In this document: positions 1-64,000 of the stretch, piece after piece
Numbering within the stretch: the stretch's first letter is position 1
Layout of the letters: each line of letters starts with the position of its first letter
DNA from: Boothiomyces macroporosus
Lineage: Eukaryota; Chytridiomycota; Chytridiomycetes; Rhizophydiales; Terramycetaceae
Assembly: GCA_027604185.1 (NCBI GenBank)
Contig: JADGKB010000009.1
Coordinates: 124,001-188,000 of the forward strand
Direction of reading: 5' to 3'
Length of the DNA stretch: 64,000 bases
Position numbers and translations under genes: made by a program
Notes under the pieces: model-generated
Database searches by the model: none
The model's input: the letters and a program-made list of their open reading frames with translations, nothing else
Told to the model about the DNA's origin: nothing

Positions 1-1
1 G

Positions 2-211
2 TTGCCTGATCAACCAGTTATGAGTATGCCAAACGACAAGAAACACTCTCCAGAAAAAGCTCATTTTGAAGATGAAGACTCTCCACAAAATGAAAAGATG
101 GATGATAAGCAAAGTAGAAATAGCTCTGTTGACGAACCTGTTGCAAAGGCACCTGTAATTGATGAAAAGGTAATAGATGACGTTATTGTGGAACACCCTG
201 AAGAATCATAG
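2..211 (+). CDS. C-terminal end of an unknown acidic protein (5' end outside window)
   Basis: An open frame enters from the left edge and stops at TAG (209-211). The visible 69 residues are charged and low in complexity, with many Glu, Asp, Lys and Ser, and contain no recognisable domain. This looks like a disordered tail. It runs towards INTS6 on the other strand, whose stop lies 43 bp further on. I do not recognise the protein. Confidence 0.55.
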   Translation: MPDQPVMSMPNDKKHSPEKAHFEDEDSPQNEKMDDKQSRNSSVDEPVAKAPVIDEKVIDDVIVEHPEES

Positions 212-254
212 ATTTTCATATTTTAAAATATATTTATATGAGCTCCGTTTTGCA

Positions 255-2923: not shown

Positions 2924-3243
2924 TTTCGAAAAAAAGAGATTGGAAAACTGTTTTTAACCGAAAAAATTGTAATCGCGACAAGTGATTCGAATTGTGGCGA
3001 TTAAATTGTAAGGCTTATCCATATATAATATTTACAGAGAAAAAGACTCTGCGAGCATCCTACTGGTACGGAATTGATGGGTGGGAATATTTGAATTTTT
3101 CCATCTCTTTTCCACTGATTTTTCACACCTTTCCAATTCTTTAAAAAGGCGGATTACACATCATTACTCATCATTAATAGTCATGATTACTCATAGTGAG
3201 GCATTGGTGATATAAATACCAGCATCAACTTCCACTTGCCAAA
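2924..3243. other. Intergenic promoter region between INTS6 and the USP gene
   Basis: These 320 bp separate two divergent genes. They hold a TATA-like box close to the USP gene and two copies of ATTACTCAT (3163-3171 and 3186-3194). No open frame with family similarity or RNA gene was seen. Confidence 0.6.
3211..3218 (+). promoter_or_regulatory. TATA-like box of the USP gene
   Basis: TATAAATA lies 25 bp upstream of the USP start codon. The position implies a very short 5' leader if it is used. This is sequence resemblance only. Confidence 0.5.
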
Positions 3244-3762: not shown

Positions 3763-3822
3763 TTTACTGTTCAATAAAAAATCATGCTTGTGATTCAAAA
3801 TACATTGACAGATTCAAGATTT

Positions 3823-4406: not shown

Positions 4407-4696
4407 TTTATAGAGATGAAAAAATGGAATTCAAAAAAATTGAAATTATAAATTACGAGTTGAAGCAAGAAACACTGGGAGTTCCACTTATACTGCTAGC
4501 ATGCAGAGTTTAGTTCCTAGGAGAGCAACAACCCAACCGGCGACTTGGATTCAAGATAATTGAATAGACTCAATGGCAGATGTGAATAGAATACTTGCAA
4601 ATAGTCAATGCTTAGTATCAGTGGGACTGATTTCGCCACTTGCAGGTTTTTTTCGCAATGTTTTGCAGGAGAAATTTCAGCTCTTCCATTTCAAGA

Positions 4697-5974
4697 ATGA
4701 CAAAGATTTCTCAATTCGTACATGTGCATTAACCTAGTCTGCCAAGAGACTAAACTCGCTTGATCCTAATGGAACAGTTTTTGCTGAATATACGGCGCTG
4801 GCAAACAAGCACAAAGCAGTTAACCTGGGTCAAGGATTTCCTACTTTGCATGTTGCTGATTTCATTAGGAAGAATGCAGCTGAGGCGATTGCTCATGAAT
4901 CGCTGGGGCACCAGTACACTAGATCAGAGGGTCATGTTAAATTGGTGAATGCATTGGCAAAGTACTACTCCCCAAAGATTGGTAGAGAACTAAACCCTCT
5001 GAATGAGATCATGACTACTGTTGGTGCTTCTGAAGGTAACTAGTTTTCACATTAGCCATCTATTCTACTATTCAAGCATTGGTAGACCCAGATGATGAAG
5101 TCATTTTGATGCAACCATACTACGACTCTTACCCGGCATCTATCAGTCTGGCTGGAGGAAAGCCAGTTATTGTATCTTTAAAGCCAAAAGCCAACGGAGT
5201 CTCGTCAAGCGACTGGAGACTTGATATTGCAGAATTAAAAAAGGCAATCACAAGCAAAACGAAAATAATAATGATCAATAACCCTAATAACCCAATTGGC
5301 AAAGTATGGTCGAGGGATGAATTGATGCAAGTTGCTGATATTGCTAAAGAACACGATTTGCTTGTTATTGCTGATGAAGTTTACGAAACTCTGGTTTATT
5401 CCGACTCTGAATCTCCAATGATCAAGTTTGCTTCTTTGCCTGACATGTATGAACGCACAATCACCATTGGATCAATGGGTAAGATGTTTGGAGTTACAGG
5501 ATGGAAGATTGGATGGGTTATTGCTCCTCCTGAAATTACAAGAGCCAGCTGGGTATTTGCTTATTTACGTAGCTTGTTCATCAGTTCTTGCCATTCTCTG
5601 TAGTCACTCCTTTGCAAGAGGCGGGTGCAAACTCGCTTGAAATGGCAATGACCAATGGATACTTTGAAGACACTACAAAAACATATCAGAAATTGCGTGA
5701 CAAACTAATGAAGACGTTGAACGATGTTGGGTTCCACCCTATGAAGCCAGATGGCGGTTACTTTATCATTGCAAATATTGCTCCATTTAAAGTCCAAGAA
5801 GACTTCTCTGCTTACTTGACCAAAACCGTTGGTGTTACTTCTATCCCTATGAGGGCTTTCTACCAGAAAAACAGCCACGGGGAAGTTCAGCATTATGTTC
5901 GATTTGCTTTCTGTAAGGATGAAGCAACGCTTGACGAGGCTGGAAAACGTTTGACAGAGTATTTCACAAAATAA
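4697..5974 (+). CDS. Kynurenine/glutamine-type class I aminotransferase
   Basis: Exons 4697-4717, 4738-5035, 5056-5552, 5573-5974; three 20-nt introns; 405 aa. This is a PLP-dependent fold-type I aminotransferase. Landmarks are VNLGQGFPTLHV near the start, INNPNNPIGKV, the DEVYE loop, and SMGKMFGVTGWKIGW, where the Lys is the expected Schiff-base lysine. The spliced joints ASEAIYSTIQAL and RASWLVHQFLPFSVVTPLQEA match kynurenine-oxoglutarate transaminases (KAT/Bna3, also cysteine-S-conjugate lyases). The likely role is kynurenic acid formation or glutamine transamination. No clear mitochondrial presequence is seen. Exact substrate cannot be told from sequence. Confidence 0.92.
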
Positions 5975-6348
5975 ATCATTGTTTGCAATAATATCATCGG
6001 ATATTGTCCCAAATCTCGATTGTGACAATTTCTTGTAATGAATCAATACGATTAATAAGAAAAGCCCTAAATGTAGAGGATTTCTGGCTCATCAACCGTT
6101 GCGCAAAACAAGAGGTTCAGCTTTCTGTGTTACCTTGCCGCAATTTTTAAATCAAACATTGTACACAGACAAACCTAACTTAAATCTATTACTCGTACTA
6201 TATACGTGGACCGCGGACTCATTAATGCGGCAAGATGAATTTGTCTTTTGAGCTAAAGCGATTTTTCAACCACAAACCTTGCTGGGCCACATCGCACTTT
6301 TAAAGCGAAAGAAAAAACGATTAATTTTTTTTAAAACTGATACCCTTG
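5975..6348. other. Intergenic region, nothing recognised
   Basis: These 374 bp lie between the aminotransferase stop and the Abp2-like start, both on the plus strand. They include an AT-rich run just before the next start codon. I see no conserved coding or RNA sequence. Confidence 0.6.
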
Positions 6349-7396: not shown

Positions 7397-7473
7397 AAAA
7401 TAAAAAATTGATAGTAAATGACTTTTGTGCTTGCAGAGATTCAAACGTATGTTTATTTAGACTTTGAGCTCAT

Positions 7474-9010
<1,537 letters not shown>

Positions 9011-9470: not shown

Positions 9471-11073
9471 ATGAAGGACGGCGCTCCTGAGGAATGTAAT
9501 CCAAAATTAATAATAGTATCTCTAAAGAGATTTGAATTACAGTACATCATCGGCCAAGGTGCCTTTGGCAAAGTAAAGACGGTCATGGACAAAAAAACAA
9601 AGAAGCAGTACGCATTGAAATATATCAACAAAGAAGAATGTATCGAAGGAAGATCAACGATCAACATATTCAGAGAGCGATTAATGTTACAGACCTTGTG
9701 TCACCCGTATATTATCGGGTTAAGATTTGCATTTCAGGATGATATCCATTTATTCATGGTCTTGGAATATGCAAAAGGAGGCGATTTGAGATTTAATTTG
9801 GGCAAACAAGCGGTTTTTGATGCACACACCATCATGGTTTGGGCAGCGCAATTATCGTACGCGATTGATTATATGCACGAGCAAAAGATTATTCATCGGT
9901 AATGTAATTCTGATTCAGCGATTTGAAGCCGGAAAACCTTCTTCTCGATGATCTGGGTAACCTGTATATCACAGATTTGAATATTGCAGTTTCAGTAGAG
10001 AAGCGATTCCCTTCTTCTGAATCAGGCACTTTGGATTACATGGGTAAGCAATTGCTGATTTTAGCACCTGAAATGTTTACTGGACAACCATACGGCCTTT
10101 CAATCGACTGGTGGGCTACGGGAACTATCATTTACGAGTGCATCTACAAGAAACGGCCTTTCAGAGGGGGCGAATCCAATGAAGAAGTAAAAGATGCAAT
10201 TCTCAGTAAACCTTTAAAGTTTTCGGATAAAACAGCAGATGGGGACCCAGTTCCAATAATTCCAGTCAGAGAGCAGTTTTTGGAGCAGCTGCTTGAAAGG
10301 GACGTAAGCAAAAGATTAGGAAGTGCAAACAATGGAAGAGGATTTGAAGCTGAAGTCAAGAGCCATGAATACTTTATCAAAATTGACTGGAAACTGATTG
10401 CTGAAAAGAAACTATTGCCAAATTACCACCCGAATGTAACTCTTGTTAACCACAGAATGACAAGGACGCCATGAACTTTCAACCAAACTTGCTGATTGAA
10501 GAAATGATTAATGGTGGCAGTGATGTTTCCTACCGTCCAAGAAAGAAGAAGAGAGACCCAAACAAGAAGACGTTGGGCGAGAAATTAGTCGGCAGCTTCA
10601 GTAGTATATTTTCAAAGTCGCGCTCAGACAACAGTCTTTCTCAGAAACTGACAAAGACCAAAACCAGAAAGGAAATCGAACTAGAGCAAATGGAGGAATA
10701 CTTTGTTCCATTTGATTACGAGTTGCCCAACAATCCTGAAATGAAATTGCCTCCTGATACAAAGAAGGAAAAGAAAGATGAAGGTTCGGCTGCCACCATC
10801 GGTAAAGAAGGAGCCAAAGAAGACTTTACGCCAGAAAAAGGTTCGCCTCTTCGAAACAACGAAGACGATGACAATAGCAGTGTGCACTCGGTTGATTCTG
10901 CCGCATCGATTGAATTGGCAAAGAAGAGCACACTGAAAAACCATTCACCACTGCGCGGAGGGTTTGAGCCAGATGAAGAAGAATTTGGTGACAAAATTAA
11001 AATTACCGATGTAGATGAATCACCTCCTAATCCAGCCGTTCAGAAACAAACCGTTCCTGGTGCTCAATTATAA
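9471..11073 (+). CDS. STK32/YANK-type AGC kinase, copy 1
   Basis: Exons 9471-9898, 9919-10043, 10065-10435, 10456-11073; introns 20, 21 and 20 nt; 513 aa. The kinase domain (about residues 20-300) has the glycine loop IGQGAFGKV, the lysine in YALKYINK, HRDLKPENLLL, and DLN in place of DFG (the metal-binding Asp is kept; animal STK32 has DFN). LEYAKGGDLRFNL and DWWATG match the YANK subfamily of AGC kinases. The tail is Lys- and Ser-rich (SSIFSKSRSDNS), with a conserved block YFVPFDYELPNNPEMKLPP shared with the two other copies, and GSPLR and HSPLR motifs. Substrates of this family are poorly known. Confidence 0.88.
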
Positions 11074-11113
11074 AATTTCATTTTTTCAATTTTTTTTCTT
11101 CAAAATTTTCAAG

Positions 11114-13168
11114 ATGGAAGAGGATTATGGATTGGATTTTTCCGACATTGAAGCTCAGTACGCTGTGCAAGTACCAAATACATTCGACAACATTGTTGTA
11201 GTGGACAATGTTCCAGTTGTCGATGAAGCAAAGGAAGAAAAGCTCTTGAAAGTGATCAGGAAAATCTTTAGTTCCGCTGGTACCATCAAACCGGACGGAA
11301 TCACTATGCCAAAGAATCCAAATGGGAAATCCAAAGGGTAACTATATTCTAATCTAGTTTCCTTTTCATGGAGTTTGAATCAGCTGCAGATGCGCAGAAA
11401 GCGATTGCGACATTGGATGGATACAAGATGGACAAGGCTCACGTCCTCGTTGTATCAAAGTTTGATGATATAGAAACCTTTGCTGAAATGTCTGATGAAT
11501 TTGAAGAAGTGCAAGTTGAACCATACGTTGAAAAGGAGCACTTAAAGTCTTGGCTTTCAGACCCAAAAGCTAGGGACCAATTTGCTATCATGAAGGGAGA
11601 CGAAGTTGGAATTTACTTTAACAACAAATCCGAATCTCCAGATAGATGCCAATCAAAGAGCAATTGGTCAGATTTGTTCATTTCCTGGTCTTCCTATGGT
11701 TCCTACTTTGTCACTATTCACAAGCAAGGAATTGCTCTTTGGGGTGGTCCAAGTTGGCAAAAGATTAACCGCTTCCCTCACCCAAATGTAACCATGGTCG
11801 ACTTTAGTCCAAAGGAAAACTATGTTATGACCTGGAGTCCTGATGCATTCAAGACCCCTGATGGCCAATTGCATGTAGCTGATTCTTTAATGTTAGAATA
11901 TTTGTATCTGGGATGTAAAAACCGCCACTCTTCTTCGGTCATTCCCTACTCCTGCAACTAAAGAAAAGGCTGGAAAGGAAAATATCTTCTTCAAGTGGTC
12001 GTTTGATGACAAGTATGTGGCCAAAATGACTCCGGGAGCACAGGGTGCAATCAGTGTTTATGAATTGCCGTCCATGGGACTGCTGGACAAGAAAAGCTTC
12101 AAAGTTGAAAATCTCATGGACTTTTACTGGTCTCCTACTGAAAACGTCCTCTCTTACTGGACTCCCGAAATTGGCAATATTCCCGCTCGTGTTACTATCG
12201 TAAGTGTACCTTCCAGAAATATTGTTAGAACCAAAAACTTTTTCAATGTCATTGCATGCAAACTATACTGGCAGTCAAATGGGGAATATTTGCTAGTCAA
12301 AGTAGATAGAAACAAGACCAAAACTACCACAATCACTTCATTTGAAGTATTCAGAATGAAAGAAAAGGATATTCCAGTTGATGTAGTAGAACTTAAAGTA
12401 TCTGAAGAATTGATTGAATTGTATTGGGAACCAAAAGGAAACAAGTTTGCTATTTTGACTGCTGAAAACAACAACCAGACTCTAAACTTTTATGAAGTTC
12501 AACCTAAATCAGCTGCCACTACCTCTGCTGTTGGTGTAAAGCAGCTTAAGCAAGTAGATGCAAAGAACATCAGCAGCGTTTGCTGGTCTCCAAAAGGGCG
12601 CTTCTGTGTCTTGGCTGGTTTGAAGGGTATGGCTGGAACCTTGGAATTTTGGGATACCGAAGATTTCACAAAGTTGGGTGCTGGTGAACACTATATGTGT
12701 ACTGATATTGAATGGGATCCAACTGGTCGTTATGTTGTTACTTCGGTATCCTACTGGAGAGTTCAAAACGACACTGGGTTGATCATGTGGACTTTGGCTG
12801 GTCAGGAATTGACCAAGCAATATATTACCGGGTTTAAACAATTCGCTTGGAGACCTCGTCCACCAACATTGCTCTCTGCTGAAGACCAAAAGAAACTCAA
12901 GAAGAATTTGAAAGAATATTCCAAGCAATTCGATGAAGAAGATGCGTTGGAATCAAACAAAGCCTCTGCTGATGTACAAGAAAAGAGAAGAGCCCAATGG
13001 GAAGAATACAAGGCATTGCTTGCCAAATTCCGAGCAATTAAGGAGAGTGAAAGAGAAGAAAGAATTGCGATTTATGGCTTTGATCCGGAAGCAGTCAACG
13101 AGGATGTTGAAGAAGTGGAAGAAACTATTGAAGTTGTATTGGAAGAATCCGAAGAAATCATCGAATAA
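11114..13168 (+). CDS. PRT1: Eukaryotic translation initiation factor 3 subunit b
   Basis: Exons 11114-11337, 11358-11874, 11897-13168; introns 20 and 22 nt; 670 aa. An N-terminal RRM (about residues 30-115; NIVVVDNVPVV and FMEFESAADAQKAI) is followed by a WD-type beta propeller and a C-terminal helical region. Diagnostic blocks are YELPSMGLLDKKSFK, IPARVTIVSVP, VKVDRNK, EHYMCTDIEWDPTGRYV and WRPRPPTLLS. The spliced sequence HNICIWDVKTATLL supports the second intron. eIF3b is the scaffold of eIF3, which organises 48S scanning complexes in the cytoplasm. The C-terminus is acidic. The start ATG follows 40 bp after the previous stop. Confidence 0.96.
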
Positions 13169-13225
13169 ACATTTTCTCAAGACTTTAAAATCTTTCGCGC
13201 TTGGATATTTTTACGCGTTTTAGAA

Positions 13226-14982
13226 ATGGCAGAAGGCGAACAACAGGCTGGAGGAGGAGCAAAACCTCAGACAACGTTATTTTCAGATGACAATGAATTT
13301 TGGCAAGCAAAGAACTTCCTAAATACAAAAATGGGAGTGAAAGCGCCAATTAATCTGTATGACCATCTTACAAATGTCATCATGCATGCTATGGAAACAA
13401 AAGCAACCAACGTAGTTGGTAAATAGATTTTCATGTAGACAACTTTGAACAGCTCTCCTTGGATGTAAAAAAACAGCTATTTACACTGGATGAATCACTT
13501 CCAACGTCCATCAAGGTGTCTGGTGAGAAACACTTGGAATATGAAAGTGTCAAACAAAAGATTTCATTTTATAAAGTAGTCGGTGATTAACATGAGAAAC
13601 CAGCAGAAGATGCTACGGATGGAGACACTGGAGATTTCCCTGATATGATGGATTTAGCAGGTCTATGGGAATGGGCAGGGGTACTGATTTTTAATCTAGG
13701 TTTCCTTTGGGAAAGAAGATACGTTTCTCCTATTTCTTGCAATTAAAAATTTGGTAGAAGTAAAGCAATTGAAATCGGTTAGACTGTGGGGAAAGATTTT
13801 TGGCACACAAGGAAACTACATTATTGTTGAAGCTGAACTCAAAGAAGGTGCAGCAGACGAAGAAGATGCCATTGTGAATGCTGAAGAAGTATTTGAAAAG
13901 GAGGTACCTGCTGTTACCGCCAAAGACGAGGATGATGGAGTTGCAGTTCCAAAAGTAAAGCAAATGGCACCATTAGGAAAGGAAGTCAGAATAGGCGTAA
14001 ACAAGTACATTTACTATGTCTGTTCACATAGTAATATATAGCTAACAACAGTTGGTGGTCCATGGACAAGACTCCCAGATGTAGTCCCTGAAAGACTGCA
14101 AGAATCCAGAAAAATCCACAAATATTTCACTGGAGACTTGAAGCACAAGGTATTTAATCCTGATTCAGATTGAATCTTATCCTGAATTTAAAGGAAATGA
14201 AGCCCAATACCTGCGATGCCAAATTGCGAGAATTTCAGCTGCTACCGTCGTATCTCCTAAAGGATATTATATAATTGACCCTGAAGCAGAAGATGTTGAA
14301 GAGAATAATGGTACTTTTGATTAATCTCAGGGAATCCACCAATTATTATTAATCCAGAATACGAAGGTTTGACAAACGAACAACTAACATCTCCTGGTAA
14401 TTGGGTACATCATGTGCCATATATCTTGCCGCAAGGAAGATGTGTTTGGGAGGCACCAAAAGCCATCAAAGAAGAGGTTGAAGGAGAAGAAAAGGAAGAA
14501 GAGGAGGAGGAAGAACAAGAGGATGATGCCAACTCTGCAGAGCCAGAAAGTGGCCCATCCCTGTTGGGAGTGCTTACATCTGACGATGGTAGCCATTGTT
14601 AATCATAGACCACGGAACCATTCCTGCATGGTCGAGCAGAATTTGTTCCCAATTATCGCCAACTAAATTCTCACCCGTCTGCTTGCGTTCCAACAACTGG
14701 CCAGGTGCTTCTGCAATGGCCTACAATGACAAATTTGCAAACATTTATGTGGGAGATGGCCTTAAAGATTTGGGCAATCCAGAGCAACACTTTGTTCCTC
14801 CAGCACTTGGACCAATTCAGAAAGAATATACTATTCCAGAAGGATCTGAAAATATTCTTACTGAACAATTGGACCCAACAGTTGAAGCAGAAGAAGCTTA
14901 TGAAGAAGAAAAGAGAGCCAAAGATGATGAAGGCAAAGAAGAAGAAGAGGGTGGTGAAGTCGAAGAAGCGGAAGAAGAGTAA
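13226..14982 (+). CDS. RSPH4A: Radial spoke head protein 4/6 homolog (RSPH4A/RSPH6A)
   Basis: Exons 13226-13418, 13439-13575, 13597-13680, 13700-14030, 14052-14149, 14169-14310, 14331-14588, 14609-14982; seven introns of 19-21 nt; 538 aa. After splicing the order matches radial spokehead proteins: [101 protein letters not shown] and [11 protein letters not shown], with an acidic Glu-rich loop and tail. The protein sits in the head of axonemal radial spokes and regulates dynein in motile 9+2 cilia. It is strong evidence for a motile flagellated stage. Confidence 0.95.
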
Positions 14983-15021
14983 TATAATCGTTTTATCTTT
15001 TCTGCTGATTCTTTACATAAT

Positions 15022-15513
15022 TTACTGCTGATTTGCGGAACCGTCCGTCTCATCGTCTTTCTTTCCATACTTTGCTTTTGCCCGTTGTTTCTTCTTTGCC
15101 AACTGCTTTTTGATCTTTTCATACTTGATTTCCAGCTTAGAGTCCCTGCCATTAAAGTGCCTGTCTAGCTTGAGCGTCAAGAGCTTCCTGGCTTCCTTCC
15201 TATTGTTTACCAATTCCCGGAATCTTTGGGTCTCCACCATTATGCCTGTTGGAATGTGCTTTAGCTGGACGCAACTCTTGTTTTTGTTGATCTTCTGCCC
15301 GCCAGGCCCACTTCCTTTGACAAATGATTCTTCGAGGTCTTTATCCAGCAGTACGATTGGAATCGGTTTCTTTTTCTCTGCAATATTCCCTGAATTCTGT
15401 TTTTCTGTATTCCCCAAACTAATTGGAAGATCTCCTGCTGGATTTATTTTGCTATTCTTCAATATGCTGGAATGGGATATCAAACGAGCGAATTGCCTTG
15501 TGATTGACAACAT
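15022..15513 (-). CDS. MTRFR: Mitochondrial translation release factor in rescue (MTRFR/C12orf65, yeast Rso55-like)
   Basis: A single exon of 163 aa. The first 20-30 residues are basic and hydrophobic (MLSITRQFARLISH), suiting a mitochondrial presequence. Then comes the class I release-factor-like domain: DLEESFVKGSGPGGQ with the GGQ motif, NKNKSCVQLKHIPTG and a long Lys-rich C-terminal helix (KKQLAKKKQRAKAKYGKK). This is the C12orf65/MTRFR arrangement rather than ICT1/MRPL58. The family rescues stalled mitochondrial ribosomes by releasing the nascent chain. It converges with the radial spoke gene, 39 bp between stops. Confidence 0.92.
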   Translation of the reverse strand: MLSITRQFARLISHSSILKNSKINPAGDLPISLGNTEKQNSGNIAEKKKPIPIVLLDKDLEESFVKGSGPGGQKINKNKSCVQLKHIPTGIMVETQRFRELVNNRKEARKLLTLKLDRHFNGRDSKLEIKYEKIKKQLAKKKQRAKAKYGKKDDETDGSANQQ

Positions 15514-15771
15514 GAAATTAAGAGAAAATTTCCGATACAGAAGTGGGCGATATTCCTATCTCCAGATGACCGAATTGTTGCCAAGAAATTGCCGATTCGG
15601 CATAGTTACCGCTTTGCAGAGTTGAGTGATTGATCACGTAAATATTCTGGCCAGCATACCTGTAAAGGAACGCACCTGCAGTATTTGTGGGGTTCGATCT
15701 TTGCAGGTAATTATTGTCAAATTTCCACTGGCGAAGGCTTTGGAGGTTCATTTTTCTTACCCATTGTCAAG

Positions 15772-17935
15772 ATGATATTCTCCAATGGAGACGAACACCA
15801 TATTCAAAAATTCAAAGAATTCAAACAGCAAGGATATCAATGGAAATCAAAAGTTGTACATTTATTAAAGAAGCCTCCGGATTTACCCTCAAAGCACCTG
15901 TCATTCCTACCCGAAATTAAAGACCGACATGCCACACACTTACCATCCTTTAGACACGGTGAAAGCGAAATAATAAAGAGAATAACTACTCCAGGAAGGT
16001 TTCCTGCCGTACCTGTCTTACCCGTGATCCCTATGCACGACAACGAACCAGAAACAAACTACCTCAATAAATTACCATCGATTAGAAGGAACAGCGTAGT
16101 GAAATTTTCAAACATGATTAGCATTATACCAAACAGTGTTGACAGATCGGATGGATACAGTGAACCTGTGCGACCTGCTATCATTCCTCGAGTTAGTATT
16201 AAAGAAGAGCCACTACCACCTATAGACAACTCGCTAGACGGTTCAAACACACAAGAGGATGAAGAACCCATTCCAAGGTTTTTGGGAAGAATGTCAAAGG
16301 CAGATGAGCAGAGACGACACGCTGGTATAGGATTTGAAGAATCAAAACCATTGGCAGCTCTTTTTTTAGAAGGTGGATTTAATAGTAGAAGATCTTTTCT
16401 TAGAAACCAACAAGGATTCTCTGCTCGTAACAAAAAAACTTTTCAAAAGTATGAAAAGGTTACGTATTTTATGGATTTGGGCTGTATGCTTTTGAATTCC
16501 AAAGAGGCAGCTCAAAGAGGAGATACCCATGTATTGTCACCAAGGCACAAGTGGCAATTTGCGATCAAGACTGTACTCAAGCTGATCAAATCTCTAGATT
16601 ACAAGAACGGGCCATGTGCAATAGAAATTGACCCAGATCCAGAAAGAGACATCGGCGCAGATGTTGTGCTAAAGCTATTCAAGCACTTGAGTCAAATTTC
16701 CTCAAGTACAAAGGTTATTTGATCATTGATGTAGATTCAACAATACTACAAGCGTTCTGCTTGTCTGACCAGACAAGAATCGTTAAGCTTCAATCATATA
16801 TTGATGAACAGGCTCTCTTTTTTCTCAAAGCTTAGTTATGAACAGCGGTTTAGATTAACTCAATACCTAACATTTGAATTTCATAAAAAAGGGATACCAG
16901 TGATTCAGAGAGGAAATAAAGCCAGCAGAGTATATTTTCTTCTGAGCGGCCAATGCAAAGTATATAAACCAGCGTTTGATGGGCAAAAGGAATCTTTGGT
17001 TCACTCTGGATACCTGGATATAGGTGAAAGTATAGGACAAGACAATACAGAAGGAACGTATCAAGAGACTGTATATAGGAATTCTACAATTGTTTGTGCG
17101 ACCGACTGTGAATTTCTCTCACTAGATAGAGGTAATTGGAGTTAATTCAGACGACTATTGGCAAATCATGATGAATGAAGATACAAAGAGAGATGTCAAA
17201 AACAGAGTATCAATACTGAAGAGCGTTCCGATATTTGAGAATGCGGATGATTCTATCCTTGAGCAATCCGTTTCTAGAACAAAGATTAGATACTATGACC
17301 GCTACACAAAGATACTGGTACGTTCCGCTAACTGTAGTCGCAAGGAGTGTCAAATAGATGCCTTTTTTGGATACTTTCAGGGAGAGTAAGGTTGGATAAA
17401 CAAATACAGTTTGTACGTAATGTCGTATCGGAATCTCTGCAAAGACCGGATACTACTGATAGTCATATATCGCACCACGAACAAAGAGTTTCTGAAACAG
17501 TATCTATCGGTGAATTGGAAACCAACGGATCATTTCCAGAGCCTCTTCCAGAATCATTTCCGCATATTGAGCGGGGAAGTGATAGACTAGAATTCATTTC
17601 AAAAATAAGCGATCATGATGCGCTACAGCTAAACAAGTCTACCGTTTCTGTTCATGCGCTGTGTCCAGTGGTTTGCTTGGTTATGGAGCGGATAGATTTT
17701 ATGAGAGTAATGTCATGGTCAATGTTTGATATCCTAAGCGCTGCAAGTTTAATCTATTCAGTCAATGTAAGTTACATTAACCAAGGTGAAATCTCTGCAG
17801 GTTCAATGGCTGGGTGTTAAACAATGGAAGTTCCACAAGAAAAAGGTGATTAAAGAAACCATGCGGTTAGTGAGTGCCGTGAAGAGTAACAAGCAGGAAA
17901 TTTTGATGCTGTGCAGGAATCACTTGAATGAATAA
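15772..17935 (+). CDS. Cyclic nucleotide-binding domain protein (CNBD2-like)
   Basis: Exons 15772-16713, 16735-17131, 17151-17317, 17338-17766, 17786-17935; introns 21, 19, 20 and 19 nt; 694 aa. The first 330 residues look disordered. Two cNMP-binding-like folds follow. The first has FFSKLSYEQRFRLTQYLTFE, GNKASRVYFLLSGQCKVYK and an IGESIGQDN-YRNSTIVCA region like a phosphate-binding cassette. The second has KSVPIFENADDSILEQSV and RCLFWILSGRVRLDK. The end is basic and helical (QWKFHKKKVIKETMRLV). Architecture recalls CNBD2-type cilium or sperm proteins; cAMP binding is inferred. The start could lie a little upstream, since the frame stays open to about 15685. Confidence 0.75.
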
Positions 17936-17948
17936 AAATCTTGTCCAA

Positions 17949-18284
17949 ATGCTGCAATCTCGTTTTCCTCTTATTTTCAAGCGCAGTCAACATTTTATGG
18001 TTATCCTCAAGGATTACCCGAATGCAATTGAAAAAAGATTAGCAGCGAGGCCAGCGCACTTGGAAAGGAATGCAAAGGCAAAGGAAACTGGGTTTTCGCT
18101 GCTTGGCGGGGCAATATTGAACAATGAACAACAAATGATTGGAAGCGCGGTTCTCTTTGATGCTCCATCCAAAGAGGCCCTGGAAGAATATATTAAAGAA
18201 GATCCATACGTAAAGCAAAAGGTTTGGGAAAAATGGGAGATCTATCCGTTTAAAATCGCTGGGGTTTCTAAATATTTAAAGTAA
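17949..18284 (+). CDS. YciI-like (YCII domain) small protein
   Basis: The 111-aa product contains a ferredoxin-like YCII domain: HFMVILKDYPNAIEKRLAARPAHLE, given in part as AIEKRLAARPAHLE, then a GSAVLFDA strand and DPYVKQKVWEKWEIYPFK at the end. The conserved His and Asp positions of the family are present. The biochemical role of eukaryotic YciI proteins is not established. An in-frame ATG at 17928 would overlap the stop of the upstream gene by 8 nt; I chose the next ATG. The first residues (MLQSRFPLIFKRS) could be a mitochondrial presequence. Confidence 0.82.
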   Translation: MLQSRFPLIFKRSQHFMVILKDYPNAIEKRLAARPAHLERNAKAKETGFSLLGGAILNNEQQMIGSAVLFDAPSKEALEEYIKEDPYVKQKVWEKWEIYPFKIAGVSKYLK

Positions 18285-18316
18285 ATAAACAAAACAATTC
18301 ACATATTTTTCCTCAA

Positions 18317-20106
18317 ATGAGCAGCTACGATACCTCAAAATCCTCCAGCAATCAAGAGATTAATCAAGGACAGCTATCTTTGGACGATTTCAATCTATTG
18401 GAAGTGATAGGGAAGGGTGCATTTGGGAAGGTACAGTGCATCTGATGTAGGTGCGAACCGTGGAGCATAATACGAATAAGCGAAGATATGCGCTCAAATA
18501 TGTAGATAAAGCTCAGTGCATATCTCAATATTCAACGAGAAATATTATTAGAGAGAGAATTATACTGCAGAATTTACGGCATCCCTTCATAATGAAACTG
18601 TGCTATGCGTTTCAGGATAAGGATATCATATACTTTGTATTAGAGCTGGCAAGCGGAGATTTGTCGTTCCACTTGACAAAAGTAGGAATGTTCCCAGATT
18701 CGACCGCCATGATATATGCGGCAGAACTAATTAGTGGAATCAAATTCATGCACTCAAAGTATATACTGCACCGGTACTTTGTCATTTATTATAGTGATTT
18801 GAAACCAGAAAATGTACTAATTGACCAAGAAGGCCATCTGAAGATTACTGACTTTAATGTCTCTGTAAATATGAAAGAAAAATCTCCAAAGTCAAAAGCT
18901 GGGACTATATACTTTATGGGTAAACCTTTCTGATTGTAGCCCCTGAAATGATGACAGGGAAGTCATATAGTTACTCTATCGATTGGTGGGCTTTTGGAAT
19001 GGTACATTGAGTTTTACATAGATCATGTACATGTGCACTTATGGTGAAGTATCTTGTTACTAATGCAGAATCCTTTCTTGGGCTTGTCTGATGAAAAAGT
19101 CTATGAAGCCATAAAGACAAAGGAAATCAACTACCCGCTAAAGTTTAGAATACAAGGGGCAAAGTGTGAAATATCGGAAGACCGCAAATCGTTTATTCAA
19201 GGATGTCTAAATCGGAACATTAATGAGAGGTTGGGATATTCAAAGGACGTTGATATAAAACAGCACAAATATTTATCTGGAATTGATTGGGAATTACTGG
19301 AAGCCAAAAAGCTGGCTCCTCAATATATACCAAAGGTATTCAGGGTTAATTTTAGAAAGGGACAAACCATGACACTGCAATAATGGCGATTGAAGAGCTT
19401 TTGGGAGGTGACAGTTTGGCAGATAAGGTAAAGAAGGAAAAGAAAAAGAAAGACAAGGAAAAAGACAAATCAAAATCAATAGGCTCTCTCTTTGGAGGAG
19501 TTTTTTCCAAATTTACGCATGGCAGTACAGCTAGTATAGCCCCAACAAAGAAAAACAGGAAACAAATTGAAATGAACTACATTAACCAATATTTTCTGCC
19601 CTATGACTATGAAGAGCCAGAGAAAAACATAATGGTGATGCCCCCTCCTATTCCATACGAAAGCGAAAAGGATTTGGAAGTGAAAACTGGTGATTTGAAA
19701 AACACTAAAGGTTTTGCAAAGTCAACATCGAATTTAAAATTGCCCGATAATGAGAAACATCCAAGTCGAAATTCAACTTCGCGCGTAAAAGGTAAGTGAA
19801 ACTCACATCTAGAAGTGAAATATGAAATAACCTCAAAGCCAGATGGAGTCAATGTTCCAAAAAAAGACTTTCTGAATGTAAAGATCAGTAATAGTCCAAT
19901 ATTACGTGAGTCGCTGCTCAATTCAATGTTCAAAGAGAAAAATTCAATAGATTCTATTAAGAGTAATCCTCTCTAACATAGAAAAAGCCTTTACTTCCTC
20001 TCCCGCGCTGTCAGCGATCGCATCAGCCCCCAAAGGGTCTTTGATTGAGTGCGAAGAAGAAGCAGAGGTTACTCCTCCGCCAACCAAATTAGAAACCAAA
20101 GTGTAA
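18317..20106 (+). CDS. STK32/YANK-type AGC kinase, copy 2
   Basis: Exons 18317-18430, 18451-18773, 18795-18919, 18940-19001, 19022-19048, 19069-19335, 19356-19791, 19813-19962, 19982-20106; eight introns of 19-21 nt; 542 aa. The kinase core has IGKGAFGKV, ALKYVDKAQC, RDLKPENVLID, ITDFNVSV (DFN as in animal STK32) and MAPEM. Exon 5 is only 27 nt. The tail has a Lys-rich run, SLFGGVFSKFTHGS and the shared block YFLPYDYEEPEKNIMVMPPP, then a Ser/Pro-rich end. It begins 32 bp after the YciI gene and is followed 111 bp later by copy 3, so copies 2 and 3 are tandem. Confidence 0.88.
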
Positions 20107-20217
20107 AGTTGAATATAATTTTTATAATTTGAAAGCTATCTCATTTGTGCGACTTGTGGAGCCCACCTTTTTTGGCACAACAATGGATTTGATTTCCCAC
20201 CTAAATTTCACACAAAA

Positions 20218-21903
20218 ATGAGTCAAAATCAGAATTCGCAGGAGACGGTAGAATGTAAATCTGGTAATAGTAATTTGATTCCAGTCTCGCTGATGGATTT
20301 TGAATTGCTTCAGATTATTGGACAGGGAGCATTTGGAAAAGTTAGGATAGTAGAGCAAATAAAGACAAAGAGACAGTTCGCACTCAAATATGTGGATAAA
20401 TTGGAGTGCATCCGATCGCATTCGACCAGGAATATATTTCGTGAAAGATATATTTTACAAACGCTCAACCATCACTACATTATCAATCTCAGATATTGCT
20501 TTCAGGACGACGAAAATTTGTTTTTTGTTCTTGATTTGGCTACAGGAGGGGATTTATCTTTGCATTTGCGCAAGCTATCCTTTGTCAAGGACGACACGCT
20601 CACCGTTTGGGCGGCGGAATTAGGAAGCGCTATAAATTATATCCATTCAAAGCACATGCTTCATCGGTAACTGAAATATTCATTGCAGTGATTTAAAACC
20701 GGAAAACATTCTAGTTGACGGCGAAGGCCATTTGATGATTACAGATTTTAACGTGTCAGTGAATCTTCGTGATAAAACACCCAAATCACGATCTGGAACA
20801 CTAGCATATGTCGCACCTGAAATGTGCATCAACAAGGCTTATAGATATTCTGTAGATTGGTGGTCCTACGGAATTGTATGTACCTTCTAACTCTAGATAA
20901 TGTATCAATGCACTTATGGAGTAGTAAGCCTCATTCTAATGTAGAATCCGTTCAAGGAAAGATCTGATGACCGAACACTTGAAGCGATTGCAAAAAAAGT
21001 AGTAGAATACCCAAAAAAACACAAGCAAACCGGAGAAAAAATCGAAGGGGAAGAGCTGCGAGTTGATTTTATATCCAAATTCCTGGAGAGAAATGTAGAG
21101 CTGCGATATGGTAGTGGAGACAAGGGCCATGGCTTCAATTCCCAAATTAAAACTCATCCGTACCTCGCTGGTATTGATTGGGATCTACTGAATCAAAAGA
21201 AACTCAAGCCTGCATACACTCCAAAAGTAATCTTTTATTAATTTAGCCAAACATGTGCTTTGAGCCAAATATTGCTGTTTGCTTGGATGAACTCATGGCT
21301 GGAGATAAATTAGGGACAAAGGTAGAGAAAGCAAAGAGAAAGAACGAAAAGAAGGCTGCATCACATGCTTCTTTATCTTCAATCTTTTCCGGTTTAAAAT
21401 CCAAATTCAGCTTTTCAAAAAGTTCGATAAATATTGAAAGCAAGTCTAATGCAACCCTACCCGCTCCCCTATTGAGCCAAAGCAGTGCCAATGTACTCAA
21501 AGAGAAGCCGGCTGCAAAGAAATCAAAGAAAGAGTTGGAGTTGGATTACATGATGAAGTACTTTATCCCATATGACTTTGAAAACCCTGAGCATAAACGG
21601 ATGGAAATGCCTCCCCATCTCGAGGATCTGATTGACGGCGGAAAGAAACTAAATAAAACTAGGTCAGAAACAAATATGAAGATTAGCAAAAAAGACAGTG
21701 ATATCGCAGTAGGGGAACCCGGCAAAAAGTCTTTAGATGGTAAGTGAATCTGACACTTAGGTCACGCATTTTCTCCATTGAGAGAACAGTTTGTGGTGGA
21801 GCAAAAGAATTTCCAGAATGTTGTTGCAAATTCGCCGTTGAGAGAAAACCTAGAGTTGAAAGGAAAGCTGTCGCCGTTAAGAGAGCAATCCATCGCAGAA
21901 TAG
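20218..21903 (+). CDS. STK32/YANK-type AGC kinase, copy 3
   Basis: Exons 20218-20666, 20689-20875, 20897-20923, 20945-21226, 21247-21739, 21761-21903; introns 22, 21, 21, 20 and 21 nt; 526 aa. The kinase core has IGQGAFGKV, ALKYVDKLEC, HRDLKPENILV, ITDFNVSV and VAPEM. The intron at APE found in copies 1 and 2 is absent, while HR-D and TPK-P introns are kept. A 27-nt exon (IMYQCTYGV) equals that of copy 2. The tail carries the shared YFIPYDFENPEHKRMEMPP block and three SPLRE repeats in the last 45 residues. Stop TAG 21901-21903. Confidence 0.88.
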
Positions 21904-23128: not shown

Positions 23129-23332
23129 TTTTTCAAAGTGAAATTTTTTTTCTTTTTTTTTTTCTTTTGCAAAACTTGGCCAAGCCACATATCCTAAGCT
23201 AGTGCAGCATTGTTGGATGTAGAGATTCGCATCAATACGGTGATCTCACCAGCAAGCCCTCATACGCAAACTGCAAGGACACACTTTTTTGTTTTTTATT
23301 CAATAATAAGAGGATAACGTGAGGAATACTAC

Positions 23333-23935
23333 CTACATAACTGAACAGAACTTTTTCTTTTTTTTGACCGGAGCTGACGAATCGTTCTTGTTTCCACCGC
23401 CTCTGTTTTCATCTCTGATGGAACGAACGAGTGAATAGTAAGCTTCGTCAACGTTAATACGGTATCTAGCAGAAGATTCTACAAATTTACATCCCATTTT
23501 CCGTGCTAATTCTTTCCCATCGACTGTGGATATTTCTCTTTCGTTTTCCAAATCGCATTTGTTACCTACCAAGGTCATTGGAATGTGGTCGCAATCCTTT
23601 ACACGTAGGATTTGCTGATAGAATGTTTGGATTTCTTCAAAGGAAGGGCGAGAATTGATTGCGTATACTAGTACAAATCCTTCTCCAGAGCGCATATATT
23701 GTTCTCGCATAGCAGAGTATTCTTCTTGACCAGCAGTATCTAATACGTCCAGTAGTGCGCTTTCGTTATCTATCACACATTGCTTGCGATAGGAGTCTTC
23801 AATTGTGGGGTCATACTCGTCGACGAATTGCGACTGAATAAATTGAATTGTCAACGCTGACTACTATAAATATAAAAATACCTTTCCGACACCACCACCA
23901 CCGACGACTACAATTTTATATTCCCTGACTGACAT
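23333..23935 (-). CDS. RAS: Ras family small GTPase
   Basis: Exons 23882-23935 and 23333-23860 (21-nt intron inside the P-loop, between GKs of GVGKS) encode 193 aa. G motifs: [13 protein letters not shown] (G1), [12 protein letters not shown] (effector loop, fungal type with SYRKQ), [19 protein letters not shown] (G3), VGNKCDLEN (G4) and ESSAR (G5). The tail is Lys-rich and ends CSVM, a CaaX box for farnesylation and membrane anchoring. It probably feeds cAMP or MAP kinase signalling as fungal Ras does. Gly at the position of mammalian Gly12 and Gln in the G3 motif are intact, so GTPase activity is expected. Confidence 0.97.
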
Positions 23936-24337: not shown

Positions 24338-25282
24338 TTATTTGAGAGAGAGGGAGGTTGTGTCCTGATATCTGGCTTGAGGGTGCTGCCAGTGCCTTAT
24401 AGGCGACCTTATTCTTGGCTCGAGGTAAAAGCACAATATTGGATTGATCGAAAAACTGCACAAAGGCACTATGTAGTTGAAGCAATCTGCCCAGAATGGA
24501 ATGGCATGGCCAGTAGAGTTTTCATAGACAATGGTGGTAAACGTAATCCAGTAACTAAAGACGTGCAGTCCAACAATAAATAGGCATCGTCTAATGACAG
24601 TAGCTTGCATGTGCTCTGCTCGCAGTCTTCCTGCTTCCGTTTCTGGCGACAGGATAGAAATCTTGTAGCAGATGTAATTGAAAAGAATGAGCACGTTAAT
24701 AGGACTAACCAGCAGAGTAAACGCTTCAATCTTTGTGAGGAACGACACCCAGAACTCTTGGCAATAGTAGCAGGATAAACAGTATAATCCTGAAGAGTGA
24801 TACACATATTGATGAGTCTCTTTGATTGGCCAAAACGGCACGGTAGCTGGGAAGAATCCAACCCCAATCCAAATAACCAAAAGCATTATGGTAACTGCTC
24901 TATCTGAAGGCGGCCCTTTTCTTTGCACTACTATTCTAAATGGATCCCACGCTATGGCGGTCATACAGACTACTGAGATTGACCACAGTGCTTGTTGCAA
25001 ATATCCTTGAATTTGGCATTGTAAATTTCCTCCCCACTGCGAGCCATAGTACAATTCTACTCCATGGACAAGCAGTTTCAATACACATACCGTGCTGTCT
25101 GATAATGATATGCTGATATTAAATATATACTGTCTTCTCATTCCAGACCTTTTGAGTCCATAAATCAGGCATAAATTAAGGTATAATCCACAAGCGCAGA
25201 GTAGCATTGATAGAATTATTGTAAAGTAATTGATTGCTGTGAACTTGTCCGGGTCGGTAGTGAATTTTGTATGCAAATCCAT
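24338..25282 (-). CDS. Seven-transmembrane receptor, class A GPCR-like
   Basis: A single exon of 314 aa with seven hydrophobic segments (about residues 18-38, 50-72, 88-110, 130-152, 178-205, 230-250, 262-285). TM2 has ISLSDS, TM3 ends AWDPFRIVV where class A receptors have DRY, and TM7 holds SINPILCFYL, a variant of NPxxY. Cysteines before TM3 (LQCQ) and in the second outer loop (GLYC) could form the usual disulphide. No lysine is seen in TM7, so an opsin is unlikely. Ligand unknown. A plus-strand ORF overlapping the 3' end is a shadow. Confidence 0.7.
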   Translation of the reverse strand: MDLHTKFTTDPDKFTAINYFTIILSMLLCACGLYLNLCLIYGLKRSGMRRQYIFNISISLSDSTVCVLKLLVHGVELYYGSQWGGNLQCQIQGYLQQALWSISVVCMTAIAWDPFRIVVQRKGPPSDRAVTIMLLVIWIGVGFFPATVPFWPIKETHQYVYHSSGLYCLSCYYCQEFWVSFLTKIEAFTLLVSPINVLILFNYICYKISILSPETEAGRLRAEHMQATVIRRCLFIVGLHVFSYWITFTTIVYENSTGHAIPFWADCFNYIVPLCSFSINPILCFYLEPRIRSPIRHWQHPQARYQDTTSLSLK

Positions 25283-25902
25283 TTTTTAGTGTAAGTTGGC
25301 GGAGCAATTATTTACGTCCTTTTGTTAGCCTTGGGTAACACAACCTTCCATTTTGGTCTCTGAGTTTCATGGGACCAAAAAAATTTCAATGGCCGACAGA
25401 GATGTGAAATAAAAGGAAGGAGAATTATATTTGGGCCATCGACAGACCTAAGGGCTTTGCACGGCGGAATAAATTCAAGAGCTGGTTTGATTGAGATGAA
25501 CTTTGTTTTTTAGTGGTGGCTCTTGGCGAACTGGATCAAAGTGGTCTTATGCGTCCCTGCACAAATGAGCGCCTCAATCGTTCGGCAAAGTCTACAAAAG
25601 AAAAATTACTATTTTTGAGTTTCCAAATAAAGGTTTAATAATTGCGGCATAGGAACCAGCTTGACAATGGACTCGCCAAGAAAGTTTTGGTGTTGATCTA
25701 CTTTATCGTGGGCTAGGGCTTTTACTGTTTCAGTGAGCGTGGTTTGGCTCTGCATTGGAGGTGTCAATCAATGACGCAGGACATAAAACGTCTTTTGTAC
25801 TTTGTGGAGCTATTGGTTGAGTATTAATGCTCATTGAGCCAAATATCGGCGCTTTGACTACCAAATGGTCTTTATTTTCGACAAACTTGGATTAGATTTC
25901 TT
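25283..25902. other. 620-bp region without a supported gene
   Basis: Short open stretches exist on both strands. On the minus strand a 48-codon ORF (about 25615-25760, starting MQSQTTLTETVKAL) and a segment starting MSINTQPIAP could be joined by an intron, and on the plus strand a micro-intron-like segment with GTTTAATAATTG occurs. None matches a family I know, so no gene is called. Confidence 0.4.
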
Positions 25903-55183: not shown

Positions 55184-55236
55184 TTAAAAATTTTCACAAG
55201 CTCAAAAAGACCAAAAATACTAAAGAAAAGAAAAAT

Positions 55237-57960: not shown

Positions 57961-57981
57961 ATATATCGATTTGCTACATAT

Positions 57982-59386: not shown

Positions 59387-59536
59387 TTGTATTTGTTTTG
59401 GAAAGTCGCTTCAGCCCCACATCTTTACAAATCATGACACAGCCAAATATTCCATTTCAGCGTTTGGTACCATCTCTATTTGGATACTCATGCATATCAT
59501 TTTATCAAATAAGCTTGTTCTATTTGTATTTACAAT

Positions 59537-61532: not shown

Positions 61533-61734
61533 TCAGACTTTTTCTCCAAGTGACTGTGACTGTATGATGGAGGGTTCCTTTATAACTGGTCTAGGATATC
61601 AAGCTCATTCAGCATACATGCGTGGTTTTGACTTGCGGTTGTGGAGCTACCTGAATCCGATGATTAGATTGTCGCATGATATTGCTGGTGCATATTTCGC
61701 CAGTACATCTTTTTAATCTTTCGCGTGTGTTTAT

Positions 61735-63221
61735 ATGTTGTTGAAAAACTATGAGCTGAAAGAACGAATAGGAAAAGGATCTTTTGGGCAGGTTTTTATT
61801 TCCTAAGGAAGGTTTACAAAGCTGTGGATTCAGCAAACTCTCTCACCGTTGCCATCAAGATTATTGATTTGGAAGATTCAACCGATGATATCGACGATAT
61901 CAGACAGGAAATCCGGATCTTGGCTTCGCTTAAATCGCCTTATACTATTGAATACTATTCCTCTTTTGTCAAAGACACTTCGTTGTGGATCGTGATGGAA
62001 TACTGTTCTTTCGGCTCCTGTCTAGATTTAATGAAGAAGTTTGGAGCTTTTTCTCCTGATATGGTAGATTGTCTCTAACTAGATTGCGATAATTATGCGA
62101 GAAACTCTGTATGGATTAGGTAAGCTATTGCTAACTTGGAATACATTCATGAAATGCAAAAGATTCATAGAGATATAAAAGCGGCCAATATTCTCTTGAC
62201 GGAGCAAGGGAATGTCAAATTGGCCGATTTTGGAGTTAGCGGACAGGTAAGTCTTTCTAACTAGAGATCACAGCTACTATTAGTAAAAAGAATACCTTTG
62301 TTGGCACCCCATATTGGATGGCTCCTGAAGTTATCCTTCGATCAGCTTACAACACCAAGGCGGATATTTGGTCACTAGGAATAACTTGCTGGGAACTGTT
62401 ATTGTAATTCGTATTAACCACAGTGGTCTACCCCCAAATGCCAATATACATCCAATGAAAGTACTATTCATAATACCAAAAGACGATCCGCCAAAGTTGC
62501 CAGAAACCTATCCCCAAAACTTGTCCAGGTTCATCTCTGCTTGCCTTGAAAAGAAACAGTCTCAGGTGCAATAGACTAACTATAGAGACCAACTGCCAAA
62601 CAACTACTTGCTCATGAATACATAAAATCAGCCAAATCGATCGGTTTCATACAATCTCAATTGGCAATATGGGCTAAACAACCAGTTCAAGGAGATTCAT
62701 TCAAAGCGTCTAAACAAATAATTGAAGATCACAGTCAATGGGATTTCTCTGGTTTGCCGAAAACATTGGGAAAGAGCGTTGCTTTTGAAGATGAATTCGA
62801 CCTGCAGTTACCGGAGGAGCAATACAAGCAACAAGTGCCACTCGGATACGACCTTTTGAAAACAGTCATTATACCCTCGTTTGAAAAAGTCACTAACGAG
62901 TACCAAAACCAACATATTCTGCTTGAAATTATTGAAAAACTAGAGCAAATATCAATAGATTCGCCAGTAATCGGAGAAAAGCTATGTATAACTATCTTGC
63001 AGGATTTGTTTAGTTGTTCGCGAAAGAGTCTAAAAGAGTTTGTCGCTTTGATTGCAAAGAATAGTGGAGACAACTTTGATTTGGATGAACAGGATGCAAA
63101 AAGGCTTAATTTTAAAGCTGGCCAGCTCAGTAACGATACAGTGACTTGGGAAGGTTACGACGGTGCAAGAACTATGATGGGAGAATACTTGTTGGCTAGG
63201 TGGAAAAAAAGTGATCAATAA
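61735..63221 (+). CDS. GCK-family Ste20-like kinase (MST/Kic1-Sps1 type)
   Basis: Exons 61735-61791, 61812-62063, 62083-62119, 62140-62246, 62267-62403, 62424-62565, 62586-63221; introns 20, 19, 20, 20, 20 and 20 nt; 455 aa. Kinase motifs: [66 protein letters not shown] and [12 protein letters not shown], matching GCK-III/MST kinases such as STK24 and fungal Nak1/Kic1. A C-terminal regulatory region of 170 residues follows. One intron (62120-62139) ends GG rather than AG. These kinases commonly act with MO25-type scaffold proteins in polarity and septation control. Divergent to FAN1. Confidence 0.93.
62120..62139 (+). other. 20-nt intron with GT-GG ends in the GCK kinase
   Basis: The segment starts GTAAGC, has TTGCTAAC and ends TTGG. 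Removing exactly 20 nt joins YGL to EYIH, giving [14 protein letters not shown] as in MST kinases. No AG acceptor gives the right frame. Confidence 0.7.
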
Positions 63222-63259
63222 AAATTTAATATTATATTAAAAGGTATAAAACAGATTAA

Positions 63260-64000
63260 TTAGAAATAAGTTTGAGGGCCATGGCCGTTTCTGCTTGGTG
63301 TATTTCTTTCTGTAGCATCAGGTTGGAAGTAATATGATCGTGGTCGAGCAGAGAGTGGGGTTTCTATCGATGTTCTAGATAGAAGAGTAGAATTTCTTTC
63401 ATGTTCATCTTTAGTTTGCTGGAAGAGCAGGGAATATGTAGATTGTGGTCTGTGATCATTCGAATTTCTCGCCAATGCTTCCAAAATAGGAGATGTGAGT
63501 AGCGGTTCGGCAGTCAATATCTTTGCACTACCAACCGACCTTCTGTCCAAAAGCGACAGTCTAGTTACATCAATTCGAAGGTTAGGGGCAATCTTCCTTT
63601 CTGGCACAACATTCGTAATTGGATGTACAATATAGGATCCTTCAGATATAACCGAAGATATTTCTGAAGTTTCAGATAATGGGCTTGGGGAATATGCCTG
63701 GTCTGGTTCCTGAATACTTCCATACGGGTAATCATAGGATTCCACATACGTGGTCTGGATTAGTGGTGGTCGTTGAGGCTTGTATATGTTTGAGCCAGAG
63801 GATGCAGTGATATTGAAAGATCTATTTCCAGCAAGCAATTCACGCAAGTGCTGATTCAGCAAGCAGGACAATACTGCGTGGAAAATATACGAAAAGGCAA
63901 TTAATCCTTGCATATTCAATAGATTTTCGTCTGACTGAAGCACTGATGATAAGTTTGTAAAGTAAAACAATGACATGTACCAGCATGCATTTAGAATTTG
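63260..64000 (-). CDS. C-terminal part of a multi-pass membrane protein (start outside window)
   Basis: The frame stays open to the right edge. It has two hydrophobic segments (ACWYMSLFYFTNLSSVL and LIAFSYIFHAVLSCLL), then a cytoplasmic-looking 180-residue tail rich in Ser, Thr, Pro and Arg that could be phosphorylated. The layout resembles the end of a 7TM receptor with a long tail, but no signature is visible in the part seen. Its stop is 38 bp from the kinase stop. Identity unknown. Confidence 0.6.
   Translation of the reverse strand, partial: QILNACWYMSLFYFTNLSSVLQSDENLLNMQGLIAFSYIFHAVLSCLLNQHLRELLAGNRSFNITASSGSNIYKPQRPPLIQTTYVESYDYPYGSIQEPDQAYSPSPLSETSEISSVISEGSYIVHPITNVVPERKIAPNLRIDVTRLSLLDRRSVGSAKILTAEPLLTSPILEALARNSNDHRPQSTYSLLFQQTKDEHERNSTLLSRTSIETPLSARPRSYYFQPDATERNTPSRNGHGPQTYF

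Follow-up and report, generated by a model that had tools for sequence, protein, structure and literature searches.

Can the spliceosome, a megadalton machine, work throughout a fungal genome on substrates of only 20 nt? The question arises from a stretch of 64,000 nt of Boothiomyces macroporosus DNA (hereafter the window; G000:C9:124001-188000), whose preliminary description counted about 120 introns, nearly all of 18-25 nt and mostly of 19-22 nt, and it touches the kingdom of the yeasts, in which the spliceosome has been studied best. The organism had been described as flagellated, fungal-like and endowed with complex I. Boothiomyces belongs to the Terramycetaceae and is a free-living saprotroph; 'fungal-like' gives way to true chytrid, whereas flagellum and complex I agree with a radial-spoke-like gene and an NDUFB9-like gene, both recognized by eye in the window. 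Here, we confirm that spliceosomal introns of about 20 nt exist genome-wide in this chytrid, a size close to that of the shortest introns in any organism; their excision from mRNA would follow from the conservation of the encoded proteins.

The genome searched comprises 15,203,306 bases in 216 contigs. Introns were predicted on both strands by an unsupervised gene finder, which took codon usage from long open frames, required GT..AG boundaries and was refined by Viterbi training on 264 kb from 21 contigs, i.e. the window and 20 further contigs represented by 10 kb each. All intron lengths from 10 to 200 nt had equal prior weight, introns above 200 nt lying outside the decoder's allowed range; the decoder enforces the reading frame and under-calls stop-free introns of length 3n, such as the one at 10044-10064 that was found by homology only. 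Already in round 0, with bare GT..AG and flat lengths, 154 of 375 introns measured 18-25 nt and piled up at 19-22 nt. At convergence, this class comprised 426 of 501 introns with a mode of 20 (98 at 19, 171 at 20, 103 at 21 and 34 at 22 nt). Trained models scoring at least 15 held 481 introns, 402 of them of 18-23 nt and 69 longer than 25 nt. Each of the 21 loci, drawn from the 21 contigs, contains 18-23 nt introns, their density being about 2 for each coding kb. This bears out the earlier term 'genome-wide', and scaling 402 introns in 264 kb to 15.2 Mb extrapolates to about 23,000 in the genome. When 16 loci outside the training set were decoded with the trained model, the gene models scoring at least 15 had 87 introns, 77 of them at 18-23 nt; with a flat length prior, bare GT/AG and the trained codon table, the same loci gave 41 of 78. 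This held-out set excludes L038, whose output was identical throughout to that of L037, and L045, which lies inside the window. Most introns thus follow a narrow unimodal length distribution up to about 25 nt, as would mark a genome-wide micro-intron regime. Raw GTA..AG distance counts in the window show a weak bump at 19-22 only, so that frame information is needed to detect such introns.

Within the window, the gene finder placed 37 gene models, 32 of which carry introns. Their 145 introns include 124 of 18-25 nt (positions 1 to 64,000, strands taken together), with 31 at 19, 49 at 20, 27 at 21, 14 at 22 and one each at 23, 24 and 25 nt, in good agreement with the lengths first proposed; the GTA...AG boundaries proposed with them recur as well, 110 of the 124 starting with GTA and 102 ending in YAG. 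The other 21 introns span 30-198 nt, and by eye at least six of these join adjacent genes (5959-6076, 14979-15135, 15605-15681, 18281-18348, 20068-20232 and 23199-23336). By eye, too, the predicted intron 62120-62172 removes a conserved kinase motif. Between two plus-strand genes, the minus strand carries a mitochondrial class I release-factor-like frame with a GGQ motif (15022-15555), and the decoder read the plus strand across it; at 24338-25285 (minus strand) we noted by eye a candidate seven-transmembrane, rhodopsin-like receptor.

Do these segments carry splice signals? In the 402 introns of 18-23 nt, A occupies position +3 in 91% and T position +6 in 59%, and the commonest 5' hexamer is GTAATT (59 of 402). 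Complementarity to U1 does not extend to +5, where G is found in 16% with no enrichment, which is odd beside the canonical U1 end described below; +5G is a usual preference and not a strict requirement. U12-type introns are marked by a U12 RNA and an RTATCCTT 5' site, and GTATCC is outside the 25 commonest hexamers of the 402 introns. At the 3' end we counted TAG 255, CAG 84, AAG 57 and GAG 6 times. A branch motif could be assigned in 348 introns, its A standing at intron position 14-15 in 289 of them and being followed by 5-6 nt in 291, so that the position of the branch A is nearly fixed, another mark of a micro-intron regime. The typical intron thus consists of a 5' GTA, a YTRAY with A at 14-15 and 5-6 nt to YAG, in total 19-22 nt with a mode of 20, and the interiors are AT-rich (75% versus 61%). 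The round-0 introns of 18-23 nt (n = 148) have GTA in 86%, YAG in 80% and YTRAY at the expected place in 62%; the corresponding values are 45%, 56% and 11% for those of 24-200 nt (n = 211), and YTRAY reaches 19% in those of 10-17 nt (n = 16). An in-frame stop is carried by 55 of 85 introns whose length is 3n, 59 of 115 with 3n+1 and 95 of 146 with 3n+2, i.e. without a 3n signal, in a count biased by the decoder's failure to call stop-free introns of the 3n class. For Paramecium, such stops are reported in 3n introns.

Could such lengths be produced by the gene finder itself, or by sequencing indels, in the form of cheap short skips that restore the frame? Decoder skips do pass stops and frame changes, and each of the 16 trained dinucleotide pairs yielded 332 to 532 of them. 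We swept 256 donor/acceptor pairs with flat priors at lengths of 10-60 nt: GT/AG, the boundary of U2-type spliceosomal introns, scored best and placed 243 introns at 18-25 nt, whereas the other 255 pairs averaged 59 (sd 14, maximum 105); the runner-up, TA/GA with 105, reads this boundary shifted by one base. None of 15 control pairs produced a comparable spike when used for training: their densest 6-nt bin held no more than 142 of 444 introns (AA/AG, which plausibly echoes the context AAG followed by GT), compared with 419 of 500 for GT/AG. The spike at 19-22 nt arises from GT/AG only, the branch motif emerges unforced, and splice-agnostic alignments and HMM exon matches yield the same lengths; an artefact of this kind is therefore extremely improbable.

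These last two kinds of evidence use no splice-site model. Protein-kinase HMM matches, at least 145 genome-wide (129 of 338 candidates scored), arrive exon by exon, and neighbouring matches gave 29 junctions. Of the 15 tight ones, at which the profile ends meet closely, 13 need 19-22 nt, and the other two are 11 nt, with fuzzy ends, and an in-frame 201 nt; the reading frame survives at 13 of the 14 looser junctions and is broken at the remaining one, of 32 nt. Seven mitochondrial-carrier junctions include three within 19-22 nt (19, 20 and 22); 17 nt is nearly so, and 1, 28 and 53 nt are outside. A protein-to-DNA aligner with free gaps was used for eight alignments, among which some introns are repeated, and frame restoration was tested in four genes. 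Here, 34 of 46 gaps measured 20-22 nt, and 33 of the 34 slide into a GT..AG register. The remaining 12 (3, 3, 12, 14, 18, 29, 30, 38, 44, 69, 69 and 94 nt) include several that either lie in variable tails or represent two micro-introns read as one.

The seryl-tRNA synthetase (SerRS) gene on the minus strand illustrates this agreement. The window SerRS is 97% identical to that of its nearest relative, Terramyces sp. JEL0728 (Terramycetaceae, Rhizophydiales), and against it the free-gap aligner opened gaps of 22, 22, 21, 20 and 20 nt. The first four recur against Kappamyces, Batrachochytrium and Spizellomyces. All five introns were called by the gene finder: 8850-8871 (22 nt), 7920-7940 (21 nt) and 7720-7739 (20 nt) were recovered in four of four splice-agnostic chytrid alignments, as was 8423-8444 (22 nt), at which the 22-nt gap lies at most 5 nt off and slides into the GT..AG register. 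The fifth (7517-7536, 20 nt) falls in the variable C-terminus and was recovered in one of four alignments, that to Terramyces, the three more distant proteins diverging and showing other gaps there. Worked by hand, the C-terminus of the metagenome protein P0002 resembles a retained 19-nt intron at this same site, a hint that the trait may be shared with relatives.

A tandem cluster of STK32/YANK-like AGC kinases occupies 9471-21903, with three genes in the window and two PF00069 matches just upstream (G000:C9:120378-120890 and 122812-123180); P0249 is a further paralogue. All introns given here for these genes are on the plus strand. Alignment of kinase 1 to Terramyces P0247 opened gaps of 21, 20, 21 and 20 nt besides indels of 12 and 3 nt. 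Gene finder and alignment agree on the introns 9496-9516 (21 nt), 9899-9918 (20 nt, in the HRDLKPEN region) and 10436-10455 (20 nt). The fourth, stop-free and 21 nt long at 10044-10064, was missed by the gene finder; the alignment gap spans 10043-10063, and GT..AG stands one base on. In kinase 2, the gene finder and the deposited B. macroporosus protein P0241, from which seven segments of 20-21 nt are absent, agree on seven introns: 18431-18450 (20 nt), 18774-18794 (21 nt), 18920-18939, 19002-19021, 19049-19068 and 19336-19355 (20 nt each) and 19792-19812 (21 nt). All except 18431-18450 were also found by alignment; the intron 18774-18794 splits the HRDLKPEN motif. P0241 further lacks segments of 44 and 94 nt. 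A spliced kinase model matches the deposited HK103_007386 of B. macroporosus at each of 402 residues (100% identity); this deposit (window 17997-20103) fuses a YCII-domain part to kinase 2 via a 44-nt intron, and the two parts are probably two genes.

In kinase 3, the gene finder called introns at 20667-20688 (22 nt, also in the alignments to Terramyces P0243 and the Boothiomyces deposit P0242), 20876-20896 and 20924-20944 (21 nt each), 21227-21246 (20 nt, also by alignment) and 21740-21760 (21 nt, also in P0242), the last corresponding in the Terramyces alignment to an 18-nt gap with no GT..AG register. Between the second and the third it placed a 27-nt exon (20897-20923) that encodes IMYQCTYGV of the kinase domain. 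The deposited Boothiomyces protein has a single gap of 69 nt here (20876-20944), i.e. it drops both 21-nt introns together with the exon, and these nine residues are missing from the Terramyces protein too, which hints indirectly that the arrangement may be a trait shared with Terramyces. Such introns do occur in deposited gene models, which makes the data public even if unremarked. Models that agree with ours may rest on similar computation, and those of these genomes can omit micro-exons and merge genes, which calls for caution in their use.

Which spliceosome would act on these introns? The genome encodes a U1 RNA with the 5' end AUACUUACCUG (68.8 bits, just below the family cut-off of 69.5), two diverged U2 snRNAs (L030 and L031; 142.2 and 135.4 bits), both with GUAGUA, and one U6 with ACAGAGA. 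The YTRAY at its fixed place is able to pair with the U2 GUAGUA. Searches of the genome for U5 and U12 RNA gave no match, as did their controls. Prp8 domain IV is present, as is a U2AF65-like protein with three RRM stretches, whose U2AF large-subunit match reaches 230.7 bits against a cut-off of 310.3 with its exons unjoined. With Isy1 and Cwc25 genes found in addition, a mikrocytid-type loss of U1 and of many splicing proteins is not seen among the components searched. Cwc25 starts with MGGG, reads MGGGDLNLKKSW and keeps the N-terminal GGG plug. The Isy1 gene contains a 46-nt intron (L036:1761-1806), which fits the aligned relatives and looks real. Its protein start, compared among nine aligned relatives, reads MAPKTLAQKQ(EDKL)ANILKKY, where Spizellomyces and two others have MARNEEKAQSMLYRF; it also differs in Globomyces and Kappamyces, and the Geranomyces and B. 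salamandrivorans models begin later. At this 5' end (L036:1225-1310), the gene model consists of two 20-nt introns around a 1-nt exon, and the Boothiomyces sp. JEL0838 protein P0121, which lacks three residues there, fits one longer intron. The predicted Isy1 start, taken from an uncertain gene model, deviates from the consensus of the chytrids. SPF45/RBM17 has been proposed as a substitute for U2AF in short introns (PMC8363638); by eye, none of the seven G-patch matches in the genome, of which L045 lies in the window, resembles SPF45, in a search that an intron-split G-patch could escape. Five pairs of matches share identical scores (C49:3542/C100:5137, C69:29927/47909, C10:178323/231979, C20:74242/119309 and C65:13017/31847) and are either recent segmental duplications or assembly duplicates.

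We are therefore nearly certain that U2-type, major-spliceosome introns have shrunk genome-wide to near-minimal size in B. macroporosus; the spliceosomal reading of the preliminary description is supported by the first rank of GT/AG, the branch motif and the U1, U2 and U6 genes. Recognition by U1, U2AF65 and U2 would proceed as usual. With only about 14 nt between the 5' splice site and the branch A, the footprints of U1 and U2 would overlap, and we speculate that the two occupy the intron in turn and not together. The lariat would comprise a loop of 14-15 nt and a tail of 5-6 nt, too short to hold a polypyrimidine tract after the branch. A length floor may be set by the minimal loop and tail that the spliceosome tolerates and a ceiling by deletion pressure, and the loss of the +5G preference would fit a move away from strong U1 pairing.

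Two other readings have to be weighed against this one. The segments could be internal eliminated sequences (IES) cut from DNA as in ciliates, some of which are short, or could be bypassed in translation, since their removal at the RNA level is here deduced from the sequence. Their boundaries are GT..AG with a branch motif, unlike the TA repeats that flank Paramecium IES; moreover, U1, U2 and U6 are encoded with intact recognition sequences, and the sweep favours GT/AG over 255 other pairs, so that we consider either form of removal hardly conceivable. It could also be argued that most introns are longer and that frame restoration reveals only the short tail of an ordinary population, as might be suggested by the 69 of 481 trained-set introns above 25 nt, the 46-nt Isy1 intron with its fit to relatives, the 44 and 94 nt introns of the deposited kinase 2 model, the carrier junctions of 28 and 53 nt and the looser kinase junction of 32 nt. 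However, the length prior was flat up to 200 nt, the round-0 class of 24-200 nt is devoid of splice signals, and none of the 15 tight kinase junctions indicates a frame-shifting intron above 22 nt, the 201-nt case keeping the frame. A mostly longer population is thus very unlikely, if slightly less so than elimination or bypass, and the shrunken U2-type introns remain our preferred reading.

How does Boothiomyces compare with known systems? The precedents named at the outset, nucleomorphs and some ciliates, stand, and the list widens by mikrocytids (PMC10245619) and heterotrich ciliates (PMC9505925). Chlorarachniophyte nucleomorphs have more than 800 introns of 18-21 bp, likewise many and of near-equal size range, in a nuclear relic whose genome is extremely reduced and not, as here, in a chytrid nuclear genome (PMC10245619). 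The 16-17 bp introns of Mikrocytos mackini are also spliceosomal and narrowly ultra-short; this parasite has 224 of them, with a conserved intron sequence and a reduced spliceosome in which U2, U4 and U6 were identified, whereas the extrapolated 23,000 here come with a weak 5' consensus and a U1 (PMC10245619). Paramecium and Nyctotherus, which are ciliates and not fungi, have slightly longer genome-wide introns of about 25 bp (PMC5014332, PMC2633312). The shortest figure found for a fungus was the mean of 63 bp in Cryptococcus neoformans, whose spliceosomal and numerous introns are about three times longer than those here, in an excerpt that leaves 20-nt introns unmentioned (PMC8476143). Chytrids are unnamed in the excerpt of PMC11649378, and among the matches listed, covered by titles and abstract starts with subscription papers mostly outside, we found no report of micro-introns in chytrids or other fungi.

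A close parallel is the heterotrich Stentor coeruleus, with introns of 15-16 nt, a branch A that usually occupies position 10 or 11 and a 5-nt tail (PMC9505925). Both systems share GU-AG boundaries, AT-richness (75.6% in Stentor, 75% here), intact U1/U2 recognition sequences and a short tail (5 nt there, 5-6 nt here), and Stentor's commonest intron starts with GUAAUU, matching the commonest hexamer GTAATT here (PMC9505925). In contrast to Stentor, which has no strong branch consensus, Boothiomyces shows a clear YTRAY with A at 14-15 in introns of 19-22 nt, and its loop is about 4 nt longer (PMC9505925). The tight lariat was conjectured to escape a clash through changes at two places, the Cwc25 plug and the Isy1 N-terminus (PMC9505925), a steric proposal of which the Boothiomyces micro-introns provide an independent test. 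The plug, absent in Stentor (PMC9505925), is kept here, evidence against the view that a 14-nt loop requires its loss. The Isy1 N-terminus is non-conserved in Stentor (PMC9505925) and off the chytrid consensus here as well, and this predicted change may favour the conjecture. Together, these introns speak against a need for genome reduction or a stripped spliceosome. We propose, giving the idea an even chance, that Boothiomyces, perhaps together with its family, represents the first lineage among fungi, judged by the matches listed, and possibly among opisthokonts that holds most of its roughly 23,000 introns at the physical minimum of an outwardly ordinary spliceosome. With a GTAATT-like start devoid of +5G and a 5-6 nt tail, it would have arrived there independently of Stentor, so that general spliceosome geometry and not genome reduction would set the minimum, and the kept Cwc25 plug beside the changed Isy1 N-terminus would point to Isy1 as the component that has to yield to the tight lariat.
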